Positions 4,699 to 60,899 of a stretch of DNA of 64,000 bases are shown here, in pieces. The notes below the pieces were generated by a model. That model did not search any database, was not told the DNA's origin, and was given only the letters and a program-made list of their open reading frames with translations. Made by a program: the position numbers and the translations under genes. Numbering within the stretch: position 1 is the stretch's first letter; each line of letters opens with the position of its first letter. The stretch spans positions 62,001 through 126,000 of IMG/VR virus record IMGVR_UViG_3300033273_000833. One strand, given 5' to 3'. The DNA comes from a virus.

Positions 4699-5062
4699 GG
4701 GCGTGTACTGGATTCGATTTAAATTGGATTAGTATACTGCAAGTAGGAGTTGCATCTGGCTCCTCAAAAAGGTGCAAACAATTACATGGCAACAAAAACC
4801 GTGTTAAAGCTTTCGGCCTTAAAGCTAAAAAGCTTGCCCTAGCAGCTTAGTTCTGCTACCTCGTAACCTTTGACGCAGATAAAAGGATTACGGGGCCATT
4901 AATCTGCAAAACAGAAAAAGTTTTCTTGCTTCACAAACTGCAAATAATTGAAACAAGAAGTTGGATGTTAATATCATAACTGTAAAAAAAATTAACTAAA
5001 CTTGTAGGCGTATATCTACAGAAAATTTAAAGACGCGGGTTCGACTCCCGCCACGTCCACCA
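4699..5062 (+). ncRNA. ssrA: tmRNA (one-piece), with encoded proteolysis tag
   Basis: The 5' GGGCGTG (4699-4705) pairs with CACGTCC (5052-5058), followed by A and an encoded CCA (5060-5062). The T arm with GGTTCGACTCCC sits just before. A tag frame runs from GGC 4788 to TAG 4848 and reads GNKNRVKAFGLKAKKLALAA. Its stop codon lies in the loop of a TAGCAG/CTGCTA hairpin (4840-4858), as in helix 5 of known tmRNAs, and the tag ends in the LALAA degradation signal. The resume point falls at nucleotide 90 of the RNA, as in E. coli. At 364 nt the length is normal. tmRNA rescues stalled ribosomes. The resume codon was chosen by position and frame. Confidence 0.93.
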
Positions 5063-24886: not shown

Positions 24887-25633
24887 CTATAGTTTAAAAT
24901 TATAAGTTATTGAAATTCCTTGTTTTATATTATTTATTCTATGCCACCAAAACCTAGGTATATTTAAACTTTCGTTTTCATTTAATATTATTATATTATA
25001 TTTTATATTGTTTTTAATTAAAATCTCGGAAATTTTTGTTTTAGAATACATAGCTCCAGAATGTTTTAAATCAGAACTTTCTATAAAGTTATTATATTGA
25101 GGATCAATCAACAAGACTTCTTTTCTACCACTTATAACGCTTAGTAGGGAATGTGCTATCGGCTTCTTATAAAAGTTTTCCTTGTGAATTTGCTTAAGAG
25201 TTTGATCAATTTTATAACTATAGGAATCGTAATGCAACGGAGTGATAGTGCCCTTTCCTCCCCACCAGAATGATATTCCGCCCTCTTTACCAAAATTGTA
25301 TTTATTGACTATTTCTTTTTCGAACTCTAAAATTTTTTCAGGATCAACAAAGCCAAAAGGATTTTCCGAGCGCAGATAATATTTATTATTTTTTTTATTC
25401 ATATACTCTTTAACATATTGCTCTATAGTAATTTCAATACAATTCATTTCTTGTAAATTTGATATTTGCCTACCTTCTATTATTTCTGGCACAATAACCT
25501 TGAGTCGCCCATATTTCTTTAATATATTATCGACATTAATAATTTTACTTAATCCAAAATCATAACTTAAAAAAAATGGGTTATTCTCCTTAAACAAATC
25601 TGTAATATTGTCAATATTTTCTACATGCAACAT
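24887..25633 (-). CDS. Cupin/JmjC-type Fe(II) oxygenase-like protein
   Basis: A 248-residue protein with WWGGKGTITPLHYDSY, the HxD of the iron-binding facial triad in Cupin_8/JmjC enzymes, a core SVISGRKEVLLIDPQY, and a distal PRFWWHRI supplying the second histidine. Such enzymes hydroxylate proteins or small molecules using 2-oxoglutarate. It lies 13 bases before the L-like gene in the tail operon, so a tail protein could be a substrate, but nothing proves this. Confidence 0.75.
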   Translation of the reverse strand: MLHVENIDNITDLFKENNPFFLSYDFGLSKIINVDNILKKYGRLKVIVPEIIEGRQISNLQEMNCIEITIEQYVKEYMNKKNNKYYLRSENPFGFVDPEKILEFEKEIVNKYNFGKEGGISFWWGGKGTITPLHYDSYSYKIDQTLKQIHKENFYKKPIAHSLLSVISGRKEVLLIDPQYNNFIESSDLKHSGAMYSKTKISEILIKNNIKYNIIILNENESLNIPRFWWHRINNIKQGISITYNFKL

Positions 25634-26028: not shown

Positions 26029-26057
26029 TTGACAAACCTTGCAATATTTAATATGAT
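26029..26057 (+). promoter_or_regulatory. Near-consensus sigma70 promoter, leaderless arrangement
   Basis: TTGACA (26029-26034), 17-base spacer, TATGAT (26052-26057), then TATAAAC and ATG 26065. It fixes the start of the next gene: an upstream TTG in frame is the -35 box itself. Confidence 0.9.
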
Positions 26058-26064
26058 TATAAAC

Positions 26065-26370
26065 ATGAATACTGAAAACAAAACAAAAACTTCTACTGAG
26101 TGGTCTTCGAGAGAAATGGGAGCACTTTGGCGCAAAAGCGGGAATACCGACTATTTAACAGGACACTTCAAGACTACAGAACTTGGTCAAGAAGTAGTTC
26201 ATAAGGTTGTTATTTTTGCCAACAAAAATAAAAAAGATAATGAAAGAGCTCCTGATTTAATTATCTACAAATCTAAACCTAATAATGCGTCTGAGGTAGC
26301 GCAAGTTCAACCTGAAGTAGCAGCTGTTTCTGCGGCCTCTGAAGATGAAGTTCCTGATAACTTGTTTTAA
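26065..26370 (+). CDS. DUF736-like small protein
   Basis: A 101-residue protein. REMGALWRKSGNTDYLTGHF and VVIFANKNKKDNERAPDLII follow the pattern of DUF736 proteins (GTFTKxDNGF..., APDFRV). A flexible Val/Ala/Glu linker leads to an acidic, aromatic end (EDEVPDNLF), somewhat like an SSB tip. It has its own promoter and is followed by the UvsE-like gene. Function unknown; a DNA-associated role is possible. Confidence 0.55.
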   Translation: MNTENKTKTSTEWSSREMGALWRKSGNTDYLTGHFKTTELGQEVVHKVVIFANKNKKDNERAPDLIIYKSKPNNASEVAQVQPEVAAVSAASEDEVPDNLF

Positions 26371-26388: not shown

Positions 26389-27489
26389 ATGAATACTTAT
26401 GGTTTACTGAGCTCAAGCTCAACTTTGTCACAATCCTCTACTAGTAACGCTTTTAGAAGCTTATCCAAAAAAGCTTTTAATTCTAAGTCTCTTGATGAAG
26501 CCATAGCTGAGCTCAGTGAAATCATAATGCATAATGCGGTGTGCGCGCAAAACCATCTCAAATTTTGTGCTCAAAACAACATTAAGTTATATTCTATATT
26601 TAATGACTTAATTCCTTTGTTGCACGATGACGCAATACCATGTTCTATTAAAGACTTAAACGACTATGAGTCTATTATTAAAGAATTAAAGAAAATTGGA
26701 ATTATAGCAAGAAAATTTAATATTAAAATTTGTGTCGAACTAAGGAAACAAGTATTCTTGTCAGGTACAGACAATACTATTAAAAAATCTTTAAATTTAA
26801 TTAATTTATGGTCTACAATTTTTGACTTGTTCGAACTAGACCAAGGGCAAGAATCTCCAATTATTGTGCAAATTAATAATTCTGTAAATGAAGCCGAGGA
26901 ACTAAAACTAAAAAACGTGGTTGATAAATTTTACTCATCTTTTGAAAACCTACCCGAATCTTCTCAATCAAGAGTCGTCGTAACCAATGAAAAAGAAGGT
27001 TGCTGGAACTGTCAAAATCTATTTAAATGGTTGCATCTATACTGTGGCGGAGAATATGGCAAATTCTTTTCTTTATCTTACAATAATTTAAATCATAAAT
27101 TAAATTCCTCTATAGTTGGCGGTTCTGAGGTTTCTGATAAGCAAAATGTTCAAGCTTTTAAACATACTTGGGCTAAAAACGTAACTCCCACTTTCTTTTG
27201 GGACGAAGAACCTCTTGATGATTCATTTTCTAAAGAAATTCCTGATTTTGGAGAGAGCGTTAATTGGGTATGCTGTGGTGTAGAAAGTGATAAGAATATT
27301 TTTGGAATGCAAGGCGTTGTTGTTGAAGATGAGAATCTTGACATTAGTAGCTTTGATGAATTACTTATTGACGTCGAAGTTGATGATAGTGATATTAATG
27401 AAAGCGAAATAGATCTTGCTCATAAGAAAATTAGAGAAGCTTTAGAGTCAAAAGGGGGCAAAGACTTCAATTCTATATACGGTTTTTAG
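26389..27489 (+). CDS. UvsE (UV endonuclease)-like paralogue lacking metal ligands
   Basis: A 366-residue protein that aligns along its length with the intact UvsE at 58038-59048: RSLSKKAFNSKSLDEAIAEL against RTMTRKRFNDL..., IGIIARKFNIKI against VGLIAKRFNISI. The metal-binding residues are replaced: SHPDQF to ELRKQVF, NIHVNY to IVQINN, IENEDKG to VTNEKEG, CYDNLHD to SYNNLNH, FHWSEG to FFWDEE. An acidic C-terminal extension (~80 residues) is added. It is probably not a nuclease but kept as an intact frame. A GTGTAAA element lies 10 bases before its ATG. Confidence 0.82.
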   Translation: MNTYGLLSSSSTLSQSSTSNAFRSLSKKAFNSKSLDEAIAELSEIIMHNAVCAQNHLKFCAQNNIKLYSIFNDLIPLLHDDAIPCSIKDLNDYESIIKELKKIGIIARKFNIKICVELRKQVFLSGTDNTIKKSLNLINLWSTIFDLFELDQGQESPIIVQINNSVNEAEELKLKNVVDKFYSSFENLPESSQSRVVVTNEKEGCWNCQNLFKWLHLYCGGEYGKFFSLSYNNLNHKLNSSIVGGSEVSDKQNVQAFKHTWAKNVTPTFFWDEEPLDDSFSKEIPDFGESVNWVCCGVESDKNIFGMQGVVVEDENLDISSFDELLIDVEVDDSDINESEIDLAHKKIREALESKGGKDFNSIYGF

Positions 27490-27490
27490 A

Positions 27491-27907
27491 ATGCCAAGTA
27501 TAAATAGCCTTGACATCACTTATCTCGAAATGGCTAAGACATGGTCAAATTTGTCAAAAGCTTTGCGTAAAAAAGTCGGATGCTTAATTGTCAAAGATGG
27601 TGCGATAATCTCAGATGGGTACAACGGAACTCCTAGTGGTTTCGACAATTGTTGTGAAACTGAGGATTTTATCACTAAGCCAGAAGTTATACACGCTGAA
27701 AGCAATGCCATCACTAAACTATCAAGGTCTACACAATCAAGCCTTGACGCGACTATGTATGTCACGATATCTCCATGCGTTGAATGCGCAAAGCTTATTA
27801 TTCAGTCTGGTATCTCTCGCGTTGTATTTGGAGAAGTTTATCGCAGTGAAGAAGGTATAGATTTATTAAGTAAAGCAGGAATTAGGACAGATTTAGTAGT
27901 TTTTTAA
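27491..27907 (+). CDS. Deoxycytidylate deaminase
   Basis: A 138-residue zinc deaminase: VIHAESNAI supplies the His and catalytic Glu, SPCVECAKLII the two Cys ligands, and GYNGTPSGFDNC the substrate loop typical of dCMP deaminases. It turns dCMP into dUMP for thymidylate synthesis. It starts one base after the UvsE-like gene and is probably cotranscribed with it. Confidence 0.92.
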   Translation: MPSINSLDITYLEMAKTWSNLSKALRKKVGCLIVKDGAIISDGYNGTPSGFDNCCETEDFITKPEVIHAESNAITKLSRSTQSSLDATMYVTISPCVECAKLIIQSGISRVVFGEVYRSEEGIDLLSKAGIRTDLVVF

Positions 27908-31003: not shown

Positions 31004-31549
31004 ATGGAATTTCTGGTTTTTACATGTATAATTATACTAATAGCAAGTTTATACTTTCAATCTCAACACAAAAATAACGCAAATTTATTATCATCAGAAA
31101 ATAAATTACTTAAAAATAGAGAGGATCAATTAAATAGAACAATATCTGACTTAAATGCATCTTTAAAAAGAGAGCAAGAAATTATCAAAGAGCGTAAAAC
31201 TGAATTAGATAAAAAAGAAAAGCATATTGTCTCAACTTTAAATGATTTAGAAATACAATTAGCTAAAGAAAAAGAAGCGAAGAAAAAAGTAACATCACAG
31301 AAAAAGAGTAGCGAAGTTAGACTCGGTCATATCGCAGAAACTCTGGCTCCTTTTTTAGATCAATTTGAATTCGATCCAGAGGCTTGTACATTTCTAGGAA
31401 AACCTATAGACTATATATCGTTTGGAGAAGAAGAAATTACATTTATAGAAGTTAAAAGCGGAAATAGTCAATTAAACCAAAATCAGAGAAGAGTAAGAGA
31501 TTTAGTGAAAGACAAAAAAGTAAGTTGGAAAGAAATCAGAATAAAATAA
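31004..31549 (+). CDS. Membrane-anchored Holliday-junction-resolvase-related endonuclease
   Basis: A 181-residue protein: N-terminal membrane helix (FLVFTCIIILIASLYF), a coiled coil of charged residues (~25-105), then RLGHIAETLAPFLDQF and EITFIEVKSGNSQLNQNQRR, then VRDLVKDKKVSWKEIRI. The VEVKSG...LxxNQRRVRD pattern is that of the Holliday-junction-resolvase-related secreted endonucleases (COG4741). The E-x-K is the catalytic pair. Confidence 0.78.
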   Translation: MEFLVFTCIIILIASLYFQSQHKNNANLLSSENKLLKNREDQLNRTISDLNASLKREQEIIKERKTELDKKEKHIVSTLNDLEIQLAKEKEAKKKVTSQKKSSEVRLGHIAETLAPFLDQFEFDPEACTFLGKPIDYISFGEEEITFIEVKSGNSQLNQNQRRVRDLVKDKKVSWKEIRIK

Positions 31550-31566
31550 ATTTAATTATAAAATAT

Positions 31567-32220
31567 ATGAAAACTAAAATCGTATCATTATTACTAGCCC
31601 TCGGGCTCACAACTAACGCCGCCTTTTCAGGCAACTCTGCACAAGTAGGATACACATCCGACTTTTTCTACAGAGGAGCGCAAAAGGCAGAACAATCAAT
31701 TCAATCCTCAGTTAGCCTCGGCTCTGCCGTCGGAAGCGTTGATCTTAGCGCGAATGTTTCCACTAATCAAGCTGTTGATACTGGTGCAGATAGCTACCAA
31801 ATTGCAGTAGGAGGAGGAAAGTCTTTCTCGGAAGGATTATTATCTGTCTATGCTGGAATCAATCATTTTGAAGACCGTCCAGGAGACGCCATTTCTGAAT
31901 TCGAAGTAGGTCTTTCTTCAAATGTATTGCTGAATCCATCTGTTTCGGTATTCAGAGATCTTGATGATTCTTTGTATACGGTTGAGCTTGGAGTCGGTCA
32001 TTCTGTAGATTTATCAGTTGCTTCCCTTGATTTGTCAGCTTCAATTGGTAACACTGATTTAACTGACACTACCGACAGAACATATTACGCTATTGGAGCA
32101 AGTGTTTCAAAAGCTGTTTCTGATAATGCAGAAGTTTCTGTTGGTGTAGATTATATTGATGCTGACGATCTTGCTGATAGAGAGTATGTTTTTGGAGGAG
32201 CTCTAACAATTAATTTTTAA
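31567..32220 (+). CDS. Outer-membrane beta-barrel protein (TorF/Gcw_chp-like)
   Basis: A 217-residue protein with a cleavable signal peptide (KIVSLLLALGLTTNAAFSG), then QVGYTSDFFYRGAQKAEQSI. The SDFxxRG motif is typical of the TIGR02001/TorF putative porins. Alternating strands follow and the protein ends in aromatic F, the BAM targeting signal. A phage-encoded barrel could alter host surface or permeability. Start ATG 31567. Confidence 0.78.
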   Translation: MKTKIVSLLLALGLTTNAAFSGNSAQVGYTSDFFYRGAQKAEQSIQSSVSLGSAVGSVDLSANVSTNQAVDTGADSYQIAVGGGKSFSEGLLSVYAGINHFEDRPGDAISEFEVGLSSNVLLNPSVSVFRDLDDSLYTVELGVGHSVDLSVASLDLSASIGNTDLTDTTDRTYYAIGASVSKAVSDNAEVSVGVDYIDADDLADREYVFGGALTINF

Positions 32221-42262: not shown

Positions 42263-44533
42263 ATGAAAATTCTAACTATTCTATTATTGTCATCAATTTT
42301 CTGCTTTGGTGATGTTCTTTATTTTAATAACGGAAAAGACCTAAAAGGCGATATTATTGAAGCGAACGCGACACACGCATTAATTAAAAGATCAAGCGAC
42401 TTGCAGTTATTTAGAATCGCTATCGATTCTTTAACAGAAGACAATCGGGCGTATATTAAAAACAATTTTGCACCCAGCCATGAAGCTCTACCTAAGTTCA
42501 ATAAACCCTTGTCTGATAAAGAGTTAACTACCCACTCCAAATACATTGATAGTTTAATTGAAACAAAATTAAGATCATACAATCTTAGGTCGAATAAAGA
42601 AGTTGATGATGCCACTTTTTTGCGCAGATCTTATTTAAAAATTATCGGCAGAACACCATCATTAACCGAAGTAGACTCCTTTTTAAATAGCAGAGAAAAT
42701 AATAAAAGATCTAAATTAATTGATCAATTACTAGGCAGCGAAGGCTATGTAAGCCATTGGTTTAATTTTTGGGCAGATATATTAAGAATAAAAGATCGAC
42801 TGAATAATAGAATATCTGGAGTGCCATACAAAAATTATGTAAAAGATTTTATATCTAATAATAGGCCTTACGATGAATGGGTAAGAGAGATGCTTTCCTC
42901 TTCTGGCCCATTATGGATAAAAGGCAATGAAGGAGTTAGTTATTTTGCTCGAGATGTAAATATGCCTCTTGACAGCATGGCTAATACAGTCCGAGTTTTT
43001 TTAGGTACTAGCCTTGAATGCGCTCAGTGCCATGATCACCCTTTTGATCGTTGGACACAAAAACAATTTTATGAAATGGCAGCATTTACGAGTGGGTCAA
43101 CCAATTTAAGAATAAAGAGTCCAGATAATTTAACTCAGTTAAACAGGCTAGTGAGGGACGAAAGAAAAAAACTAGAAGATTCAGATCAGCCTCAAAAATC
43201 AAGACAATTATCAAATGCTGTCAGAGATATCCAAGATATTCTGCAAACTGGTTTAACTAGTTTAGGAAATGGTAAGATAAATTTACCGAAAGATTATCAA
43301 TATAACAATGCAAAACCAAATGAAGTTTTATTAGGTAAAACAATTTTTGGAAAAGAAATCGATATCAAAACTAAAGCTCCTGACGCTGGTTCTAGAGAGA
43401 TTTACGCTAATTGGTTGGCTTCAGATTCTAACCCAAGATTTACCGCTGTAATTGTAAATCGTTTATGGAAAGAAGTGTTTGGGCTTGCCTTAATTGAACC
43501 TCTGGATAATATGTTCGACGATACTCTCGCAACTGATACAAAACTTCAGTTACATTTGGAAAAAGTTATGGTTGCATTAGATTATGATTTAAAAGAATTT
43601 TTGAGGATATTATATAACACAAAGACTTTTCAAAGACAATCTGTAGTTCGAGATGTAATACCTAAAGACAATAAAGATCAGTCTATGCCTGTAGATGTAA
43701 AATGGATCATAGCTGGACCAAATGTAGAAAAGCAATCTCAAGGAGCAATTCCATATTTCTATCAAGGGCCAATACTCGAAAGAATGAGTGGCGAGCAAAT
43801 CTGGGACTCTTTAGTCAACTTAACCTTTAATGATATAGACTCTAGAAAATTAGAGCAAAACACAAAAGGTTACCAGAATTACGAAAATTTTTCCGAAATG
43901 ACTGGAGAAGAATTGTTTGCAGACATAATGGCTAAAATTAATAAAACAGAAAAGCCAAAAATAGAGAAGAAGACTAAGTTTTCTGAACCTATCAACACCG
44001 ACTGCCCCATAAAGCCTGGGAGGGCAATTGATCCAACATTATTAGCTCTAAACGAAAACGGAGAAACTCTTGCGTTTTGTTGCGAATCTTGCGTTGATAA
44101 ATATAAATCCCAGCAGAAAGCTAGAGAACAAGAGTATAAGCAGAATTTTGTTAAAGATAGAAACTCTGTCAGAGCCTCTGAACTGCCTTCCCCTGCTCCG
44201 ATTGGTCACTTAATCCGAGAGTTTGGAGGTTCGGATAGAGAGCAGATAGAAAATGCGCATAAAAGCGCCTCTGCAACACAAGTATTAAATTTACTCAATG
44301 GGTTTGTAGAAACTAGATTATTAAAAAATAAAAACTTTGAAATTATTAAAGCAATTCAATCTCAAAAATCATTAAATGATAAAATAAAAGTTGGATATAA
44401 ATACATACTAAATAGAGAGCCTGACACTAAAGAGTTAAGAATTTTTTCTGACAATTTAAAAAACGCAAAAGAACCTTATAAAGAAATAATATGGACGCTA
44501 ATCAATACTCATGAATTCATGTTTATTAAATAA
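42263..44533 (+). CDS. Secreted DUF1549/DUF1553 protein (planctomycete/verrucomicrobial type)
   Basis: A 756-residue protein with a signal peptide (MKILTILLLSSIFCFG). A short DVLYFNNGKDLKGDIIEA segment precedes DUF1549: DATFLRRSYLKIIGRTPS, FWADILRIKDR, then LGTSLECAQCHDHPFDRW with a CxxCH motif. DUF1553 follows (NPRFTAVIVNRLWKEVFG, LALIEPLDNMFDD). A CPIKPG...FCCESCVDKY stretch between resembles YHS/TRASH metal-binding. Such proteins are common in Planctomycetota and Verrucomicrobiota, usually beside DUF1501 genes as here, and their biochemical role is unknown. Exceptional in a phage. Confidence 0.9.
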   Translation: MKILTILLLSSIFCFGDVLYFNNGKDLKGDIIEANATHALIKRSSDLQLFRIAIDSLTEDNRAYIKNNFAPSHEALPKFNKPLSDKELTTHSKYIDSLIETKLRSYNLRSNKEVDDATFLRRSYLKIIGRTPSLTEVDSFLNSRENNKRSKLIDQLLGSEGYVSHWFNFWADILRIKDRLNNRISGVPYKNYVKDFISNNRPYDEWVREMLSSSGPLWIKGNEGVSYFARDVNMPLDSMANTVRVFLGTSLECAQCHDHPFDRWTQKQFYEMAAFTSGSTNLRIKSPDNLTQLNRLVRDERKKLEDSDQPQKSRQLSNAVRDIQDILQTGLTSLGNGKINLPKDYQYNNAKPNEVLLGKTIFGKEIDIKTKAPDAGSREIYANWLASDSNPRFTAVIVNRLWKEVFGLALIEPLDNMFDDTLATDTKLQLHLEKVMVALDYDLKEFLRILYNTKTFQRQSVVRDVIPKDNKDQSMPVDVKWIIAGPNVEKQSQGAIPYFYQGPILERMSGEQIWDSLVNLTFNDIDSRKLEQNTKGYQNYENFSEMTGEELFADIMAKINKTEKPKIEKKTKFSEPINTDCPIKPGRAIDPTLLALNENGETLAFCCESCVDKYKSQQKAREQEYKQNFVKDRNSVRASELPSPAPIGHLIREFGGSDREQIENAHKSASATQVLNLLNGFVETRLLKNKNFEIIKAIQSQKSLNDKIKVGYKYILNREPDTKELRIFSDNLKNAKEPYKEIIWTLINTHEFMFIK

Positions 44534-58002: not shown

Positions 58003-58031
58003 TTGACATTTTTTTTGTTTTGTCTTATGAT
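58003..58031 (+). promoter_or_regulatory. Near-consensus sigma70 promoter, leaderless arrangement
   Basis: TTGACA (58003-58008), 17-base spacer, TATGAT (58026-58031), then 6 bases to ATG 58038. It fixes the start of UvsE. Confidence 0.9.
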
Positions 58032-58037
58032 TATATC

Positions 58038-59048
58038 ATGTCAGAACAAATATTAGGCTTAACTTGCATTAGTGAAGAACTAAAGGAGAAAGATAAAGTT
58101 AAATATTCCTTTAGAACTATGACTCGCAAAAGATTCAATGATTTGTGTAACTCCGAAGGTAGAGATGAAGCAATTAATCAATTATCTGAAAGAATTTTGC
58201 ACAATGTTATTGTTACTCAATATATTGTCAATCATTGCCATGCCTCAAATATTAGGCATTATCGTCTTAGTTCTGCTCTTTTTCCTCTCCTTACCGATCA
58301 GACTTTGGAAATTTCTTTGGAAGAATTGCCTCACAGAGCAAGAATCGAAAAAGGATTAGAATTTGTAGGCTTAATTGCAAAACGCTTTAATATATCAATC
58401 GGCTCTCACCCCGACCAATTCAATGTTCTCGCGTCTCCCGATAGAGACAAGGTTAGTCGCACTATAAACGAACTTAATTTCCAAGCGAGCGTTCTTGACA
58501 TGGTAGGACTACCACAAGATCATACTGCACCGATGAACATTCATGTAAACTATACTCCAAAAATGGATGAAAGTTTGGAAATAGTTGCAACTAGATTTTT
58601 TCGCAATCTTTCTATGTGCGACAAAGGTGTTTATAATCGTCTAACTATCGAGAACGAAGACAAAGGTTTCTTTAATGTAGATAATTGCATCAAATTTAGT
58701 GAATACTTGTTTGCAGTCTTCGGTGTTAATATTCCTGTTTGTTACGACAATTTGCATGACTTCTGCAACCCATCAGAAGATCATAATATTGCATTTCAAG
58801 CAGAGCGATGTGCATATACATGGGTAAATCAAGGAAGTGGTGATAACAATTTTGTTGCTCCTGTTTTTCATTGGTCAGAAGGTAAACCCGAAAAGCCTCG
58901 CTCTCATGCAGACTATTTTGCTCTTGGAAATTTTCCACCACATATCGCCATTGACCCCGATCAACCTGCCAAGTGGGAGTGTGAAGTTAAGTTAAAAGAT
59001 CAAGCGATTAAAGTATTGCGAAATAATCTAACAGAAAAAAGTGGTTGA
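58038..59048 (+). CDS. uvsE: UV damage endonuclease UvsE
   Basis: A 336-residue TIM-barrel endonuclease: RTMTRKRFNDLCNSEGRDEA, NISIGSHPDQFNVLASPD, NIHVNYTPKMDES, RLTIENEDKGFFNV, CYDNLHDFCNPS, VFHWSEG and PRSHADYF. All the His/Glu/Asp metal ligands of UvsE are present. It nicks DNA 5' to UV photoproducts. Own leaderless promoter. Its degenerate paralogue lies at 26389. Confidence 0.92.
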   Translation: MSEQILGLTCISEELKEKDKVKYSFRTMTRKRFNDLCNSEGRDEAINQLSERILHNVIVTQYIVNHCHASNIRHYRLSSALFPLLTDQTLEISLEELPHRARIEKGLEFVGLIAKRFNISIGSHPDQFNVLASPDRDKVSRTINELNFQASVLDMVGLPQDHTAPMNIHVNYTPKMDESLEIVATRFFRNLSMCDKGVYNRLTIENEDKGFFNVDNCIKFSEYLFAVFGVNIPVCYDNLHDFCNPSEDHNIAFQAERCAYTWVNQGSGDNNFVAPVFHWSEGKPEKPRSHADYFALGNFPPHIAIDPDQPAKWECEVKLKDQAIKVLRNNLTEKSG

Positions 59049-60416: not shown

Positions 60417-60899
60417 ATGGACATTAAAATAATAGATGGAAATCTTCTTGATTTTCCTAATGATATAGATTTCATTGCTCACTCTTGCAATACACATAAT
60501 GTTATGGGAGCAGGAATTGCTAGAGCAATAAAAGATCGCTACCCTAAAGCCTATGAAGCTGATTGTCATGCAATGTACGAAGGTGCTAATATTTTAGGGG
60601 ATTATAGTTTTTCAGTAACAGATGCTACTCAAAATAAAGGCATTTATAATATGTATACGCAATCTAAGATTGGAGACAAAAGATCAGTTAATTATGAAGC
60701 ATTTTATGTTGCATTAAATAAAGTGGCAGGTCATATTGAATGGCAATCCAAGCATGAAGATGAAGAAAAGATTCTAGGTTTACCTTGGATGATCTCTTGT
60801 GGACTCGCAGGTGGAAGTTGGAATGTAATTTTTTCAATGATAAATGATATTTTGATTGACAGGTGCTTCAAAACCTTTATAGTTAAATATGATGAATAA
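60417..60899 (+). CDS. Macro-domain protein
   Basis: A 160-residue protein: IDFIAHSCNTHNVMGAGIAR, AIKDRYPKAYEAD, NMYTQSKIGD, and PWMISCGLAGGSWNVIF. This is a macro domain, which binds ADP-ribose and often hydrolyses ADP-ribose-1''-phosphate or protein-linked ADP-ribose. In a phage it may counter ADP-ribose-based defence or recycle NAD. Confidence 0.88.
   Translation: MDIKIIDGNLLDFPNDIDFIAHSCNTHNVMGAGIARAIKDRYPKAYEADCHAMYEGANILGDYSFSVTDATQNKGIYNMYTQSKIGDKRSVNYEAFYVALNKVAGHIEWQSKHEDEEKILGLPWMISCGLAGGSWNVIFSMINDILIDRCFKTFIVKYDE

Follow-up and report, generated by a model that had tools for sequence, protein, structure and literature searches.

The gene at positions 26389 to 27489 of the analyzed DNA encodes a protein with the barrel of the UV endonuclease UVDE (UvsE), in which metal ligands have been lost. 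The protein belongs to a family under strong purifying selection, and shares its subfamily and a C-terminal motif with tailed UvsE enzymes. The DNA, called the window here, is 64,000 nucleotides long and corresponds to positions 62001-126000 of the 203,067-base record IMGVR_UViG_3300033273_000833. UVDE nicks DNA 5' of UV lesions. In our view, the chances are about even that this protein, named pseudo-UvsE, is a maintained UVDE-family pseudoenzyme that serves as a docking adaptor through its barrel and its tail.

Fold and family membership

The same phage carries two UvsE-like genes:

26389-27489, + strand: pseudo-UvsE gene (clade D, see below), ATG start, 366 codons, no internal stop
58038-59048, + strand: canonical UvsE, all ligands present, possible TTG start at 58020

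The first-pass annotation had described the former as an intact frame of 366 codons aligning along its length with the latter. The open reading frame is indeed complete, and BLASTP aligns its residues 21-273 with the canonical UvsE (28% identity and 50% positives over 270 columns, E 2e-30). The Pfam profile UvdE (PF03851) matches the protein with 34.3 bits (cut-off 24, E 1.9e-8). The predicted model has a mean pLDDT of 82.3, with values below 50 at residues 327-338 and 351-366; it was built with 36 related sequences as input, canonical UvsE among them, which may favor the UVDE fold. This model superposes on SacUVDE (PDB 3tc3) with a VIA-align Z of 30.9 and an rmsd of 2.2 over 271 residues. The seven best structural matches are all UVDE entries (Z 29.4-30.9), followed by another barrel at 17.0, which rules out a different TIM-barrel enzyme as its identity. 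No other close family appears in the VIA-align and Foldseek listings, an absence that carries no evidential weight. The fold in common with UVDE (PDB 2j6v, 3tc3, 4gle) extends over residues 1-311. In comparison with UVDE, the protein lacks Q104 and most of the ligands, and adds a linker and a C-terminal motif. The NCBIfam equivalog cut-off does not separate pseudo from canonical proteins, because the canonical UvsE of the window (95.1/456; 88.3/124.45) falls below it like pseudo-UvsE (52.5/456 bits).

Four clades of pseudo-UvsE and their tailed relatives

Eight orthologues of the window protein, at 82-83% identity and with the same changes, were found in IMG/VR. A profile search of 49 records carrying UvsE or an orthologue revealed a second, divergent copy in nine more, and an alignment scan gave 16 loci, one of which (L107) encodes a tailed enzyme. 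The merged set comprises 25 records with a pseudo-UvsE, divided into clades D (nine, window included), B (six), C (seven) and A (three). Several clade D copies are nucleotide-identical and thus not independent.

The tailed UvsE proteins L107, L128 and L129 have all motifs intact. They share with the pseudo proteins a Y at residue 4, LF at 211-212, AF at 256-257 and the C-terminal motif [FY]N-x-[LIV]Y, and differ from them by the presence of all ligands and of Q104, and by a long K/P/Q-rich linker. In a 69-row tree, the three tailed proteins and all pseudo clades lie on one side (98/95), apart from the canonical group; clades A-D group together (90/80), and the branch of clade D is long (3.14). 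In a 49-row tree without clade D, support reaches 100/100 for A+B+C and 95/95 for tailed plus pseudo proteins, and the AU test rejects a constraint that joins the tailed proteins and clade A (p 0.002). Both trees triggered the program's warning that long branches meet. The placement of clade D is also backed by gene order: a small gene described below (f6) lies immediately 5' in clades B, C and D, and the neighbors f2, f3 and f17, likewise listed below, recur across loci.

A recent origin by duplication from the UvsE at 58038 is ruled out by the tree, in which the window protein groups with the tailed UvsE. The description of the gene as a simple degenerate paralogue of that UvsE is not supported either. 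The canonical protein, although homologous, sits on another branch, has complete ligands and has no tail. Since the tailed forms with intact ligands and the pseudo clades constitute one group, the ligand loss most simply came after the gain of the tail.

Against named phages, the window protein gave one weak match at chance level, and a clade B protein matched only LR756502, at 20.6% identity. The first-pass annotation knew of no described non-catalytic UvsE; likewise, none is found in the titles and abstract openings of the open-licence papers searched, or in passages of PMC6487183 and PMC10831059.

Loss of metal ligands and lesion-probing residues

Ligands are numbered here as in Thermus thermophilus UVDE, where we take them to be H69, H101, H143, E175, D200, H203, H231 and E269; Q104-Y/F105 is presumably the lesion-probing pair. 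Every aligned ligand number hits the right residue type in the UVDE chain when shifted by 21 (the alignment does not reach E269), and this numbering is consistent with the PDB titles E175A and K229L. An alignment of 36 proteins assigns the corresponding residues of the window protein as follows:

26626-26628, + strand: D80, at the H69 position (D in phage UvsE), kept; D in 36/36 proteins
26737-26739, + strand: E117, replaces H101
26869-26871, + strand: Q161, replaces H143
26983-26985, + strand: T199, replaces E175
27082-27084, + strand: N232, replaces D200
27091-27093, + strand: N235, replaces H203
27196-27198, + strand: F270, replaces H231
27274-27276, + strand: C296, replaces E269

The earlier claim that all visible metal ligands were lost is thus correct for seven of the eight positions and fails for the invariant D80. 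The five motifs on which it was built (SHPDQF, NIHVNY, IENEDKG, CYDNLHD and HWSEG) are all changed, and E269 has become C296 besides.

The full ligand set is present in 18 canonical rows and one tailed row of the 36-protein table, and also in two further tailed proteins. H231, E269 and Q104 are changed in all 17 pseudo rows, the replacements of the remaining ligands differing clade by clade. At positions 101/143/175/200/203/231, clade D has E-Q-T-N-N-F, clade B Y/C-K-Q-(H/N/Y/S)-A-L, clade C Q-H(kept)-K-N-F-T and clade A H(kept)-E-D-D(kept)-H(kept)-R. Clade A is only partly degenerate, as it retains three ligands (H101, D200 and H203); it has acidic substitutes at H143, E175 and E269. Q104 is absent from all four pseudo clades and F105 is lost in B and D, where clade D shows a K and an alignment gap at the pair. 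Other residues of the catalytic face that are invariant in canonical UvsE, among them S72, N159 and K298, are lost in most pseudo proteins. K229 is uninformative here, since canonical phage UvsE has V or I at that position. Clades B-D likely perform no UVDE-type cutting, and clade A may retain some metal binding or an altered chemistry.

Purifying selection and the location of constraint

The gene was proposed to be kept intact, and the unsaturated pseudo pairs agree with this: Nei-Gojobori dN/dS is 0.019 (L001/L006), 0.058 (L001/L004), 0.032 (L102/L103) and 0.032 (L105/L106), indicating purifying selection. Seven canonical pairs range from 0.064 to 0.319. In the two phages where both genes are unsaturated, the pseudo pair L102/L103 gives 0.032 versus 0.117 for their canonical UvsE (L020/L019). 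Thirteen pseudo pairs were tried, seven of which had a dS beyond correction; two pairs involving the window have a dS above 2, making the window gene's own dN/dS (0.04-0.05) unreliable.

Surface classes (face, back, helix, strand) were defined from the secondary structure of the predicted model. From canonical to pseudo proteins, conservation drops by 0.289 in catalytic-face loops versus 0.169 in helices and back-face loops (Mann-Whitney p 0.002, a guide only, given that the classes were delimited on a predicted model and that columns depend on one another). The drop is greatest on the strands (0.354), which bear several ligands. The difference in conservation between the face and the back plus helices is +0.079 in canonical and +0.070 in tailed proteins, and falls to -0.020, -0.085, -0.029 and -0.053 in clades A, B, C and D; 1000 random draws of six canonical proteins each gave no value under -0.021, a bound within which clade A still lies. 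In this respect too the window protein departs from UVDE, its catalytic face being no longer more conserved than its helices and back-face loops. The shift is a matter of degree, since the retained fraction of canonical-conserved positions is similar on loops and helices (face 0.52, back 0.53, helix 0.50, strand 0.42). With classes taken from a model, this argues that conservation has moved, by degree, off the catalytic face toward the helices, the back-face loops and the tail.

The C-terminal tail

The barrel is followed by a tail made of two parts:

27313-27465, + strand: acidic C-terminal linker, residues 309-359, mostly of low model confidence
27466-27483, + strand: motif FNSIYG, residues 360-365; [FY]N-x-[LIV]Y in every pseudo and tailed relative inspected

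Residues 309-366 contain 17 D+E versus 5 K+R, so the acidic C-terminal extension reported by the first-pass annotation is present in the window protein. Its acidity is not a shared feature, as the tailed relatives have a basic pI over their full length (8.0-9.1); what all have in common is the end motif. It occurs at most 26 residues from the end in 25/25 pseudo records and in the three tailed proteins, which end in SFNQIYGR (L107), PFNQLYQ (L128) and AYNHVYG (L129). A looser end pattern, run on 461 ORFs of 21 loci, matched only the UvsE relatives and one unrelated protein, weakly (window 60417-60899). Among the 17 DNA matches of the tail pattern in five whole records, those that are C-terminal in ORFs above 45 codons are only the five pseudo-UvsE. 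The tail would dock a partner, with the barrel as a scaffold.

In phage T4, gp43 and gp55 end in SLDFLFG and SLDFLYEAND, and two reports describe these C-termini as binding the sliding clamp (PMC2988020, PMC7892883). The likeness to these ends, a short hydrophobic-aromatic-acidic motif near the C-terminus that is also similar to NYNALYEAA of clade C, is suggestive. However, a clamp-binding tail finds little support in the phages themselves. A gp45-type clamp (PF02916) was matched in 0/19 records, with a control that was unmatched too, and Pol B, Pol A and DnaN were each found in 0/12 records. Pol III alpha is present in nine of 12 and, unlike the T4 clamp clients, lacks the motif at the five C-termini inspected.

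Genomic neighborhood and distribution

The pseudo-UvsE gene is flanked by the following genes:

26029-26370, + strand: small protein f6, immediately upstream, acidic C-tip
27491-27907, + strand: dCMP deaminase-like gene, next downstream

The f6 gene is found in 38/49 records: 15/15 of clades B-D, 0/2 of clade A, 0/3 tailed and 23/29 others. It is common in records without pseudo-UvsE, which rules it out as an obligate partner and makes the pseudo-UvsE gene an accessory insert in a conserved neighborhood. None of 14 slots examined beside f6 in records without pseudo-UvsE holds a UvsE-like gene. The f6 model reaches a pLDDT of 68 with a best PDB match at E 0.46, and no significant match was found in Pfam or PHROGs. 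Its C-tip is SSB-like, acidic and hydrophobic (DEVPDNLF, EIPDTLV, EVDLI). The deaminase cluster (f17) has members in the window and in five loci of clade B, and 17/21 loci carry f2 (Endonuc_Holl type) and f3, which in the window (31525-32220) has a start resembling a signal peptide. PADLOC matched none of five proteins.

Among pseudo-bearing virus records that reach 100 kb, 10 of 11 (the window's included) also contain a canonical UvsE, the exception being G054 (110 kb). For pseudo-bearing virus records of any size the count is 12/24, and most of the others are short fragments. A second UvsE is absent from the three tailed records (53-79 kb). Of 43 records with a canonical UvsE, 32, several of them 160-206 kb long, have no pseudo copy, though records may be incomplete.

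One clade A copy (L108; PBIO01000024.1, 6010-7050) lies on a 47-kb MAG contig binned as Halobacteriovorax, with a gene order resembling that of L102/L103. This contig could point to a host, but is likely mis-binned phage DNA. The tailed protein L128 had no matches in the other 76 genomes of that MAG's order.

Elsewhere in the window, a tmRNA gene with the tag GNKNRVKAFGLKAKKLALAA lies at 4699-5062. A 756-aa protein with DUF1549, DUF1553 and DUF4214 (42263-44533) is unexpected in a phage; DUF4214 recurs on a glycosyltransferase-like protein (777-2690). A Cupin_8/JmjC-like protein (24887-25633) adjoins the tail genes.

Possible function of pseudo-UvsE

The tail of an active tailed UvsE would first have tethered the enzyme to a partner in phage DNA metabolism. 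Where a phage possessed a canonical UvsE besides, the tailed copy could then have given up cutting while keeping the barrel and the docking tail. Its present role would be that of a non-catalytic adaptor or regulator, joining the partner of the tail to a ligand of the helical or back surface of the barrel. We consider slightly less likely than not this whole history, in which a UV-endonuclease lineage gained a docking tail and, once a second UvsE was present, dropped cutting to become a tail-tethered adaptor.

The retention of the fold and of the groove position, and the canonical UvsE that accompanies most large pseudo-bearing records, would also suit a protein whose old groove still binds damaged or undamaged DNA without cutting it, so as to protect lesions or flag them for the canonical enzyme. 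Net charge does not decide on DNA binding, as canonical UvsE is mostly acidic too. However, lesion binding in the usual UVDE mode becomes less likely with Q104 gone in all clades, and the loss of F105 in B and D and of other canonical-invariant face residues in most pseudo proteins, together with the displacement of constraint to the helices, back and tail, argues against the damaged-DNA binding without cutting that was initially proposed; we consider it unlikely. A regulatory role directed at UvsE itself is less probable still: a tail in common with active-looking enzymes could let pseudo-UvsE compete for the same partner and so inhibit or regulate phage or host UvsE, which usually coexists in its phage form, but the canonical UvsE of pseudo-bearing phages has no such tail, and most canonical-bearing records do without a pseudo copy.

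About as improbable is an altered enzyme in which a new one-metal or metal-free site is formed by D80, E117, C296 or else H236, which is displaced by one residue from the H203 position. Clade A, with three exact ligands and E/D at three others, and the invariance of D80 speak for it; against it, the replacements in clades B-D are mostly non-ligands and clade-specific (K, Q, T, F, L, A), and positions 101 and 200 vary even within clade B. A decaying gene caught ahead of its loss would explain the missing catalytic residues and the accessory distribution, and is very hard to reconcile with 25 intact copies spread over four clades, and with the low dN/dS of the measurable pairs. The docking adaptor remains our preferred reading.

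Implications for phage UV repair

The Pfam UvdE cut-off is exceeded by all six pseudo proteins scanned, and annotation pipelines will therefore label them UV endonucleases. Such mislabelling leads to an over-count of phage UV repair. The active-looking tailed enzymes, the half-lost form of clade A and the changed forms of the three other clades are all extant and could, we tentatively propose, represent a series of steps from nuclease to non-enzymatic factor. Members of the subfamily range from an active-looking tailed enzyme to the changed forms, and both the binding by the tail and a role after catalysis are open to direct tests with purified proteins.
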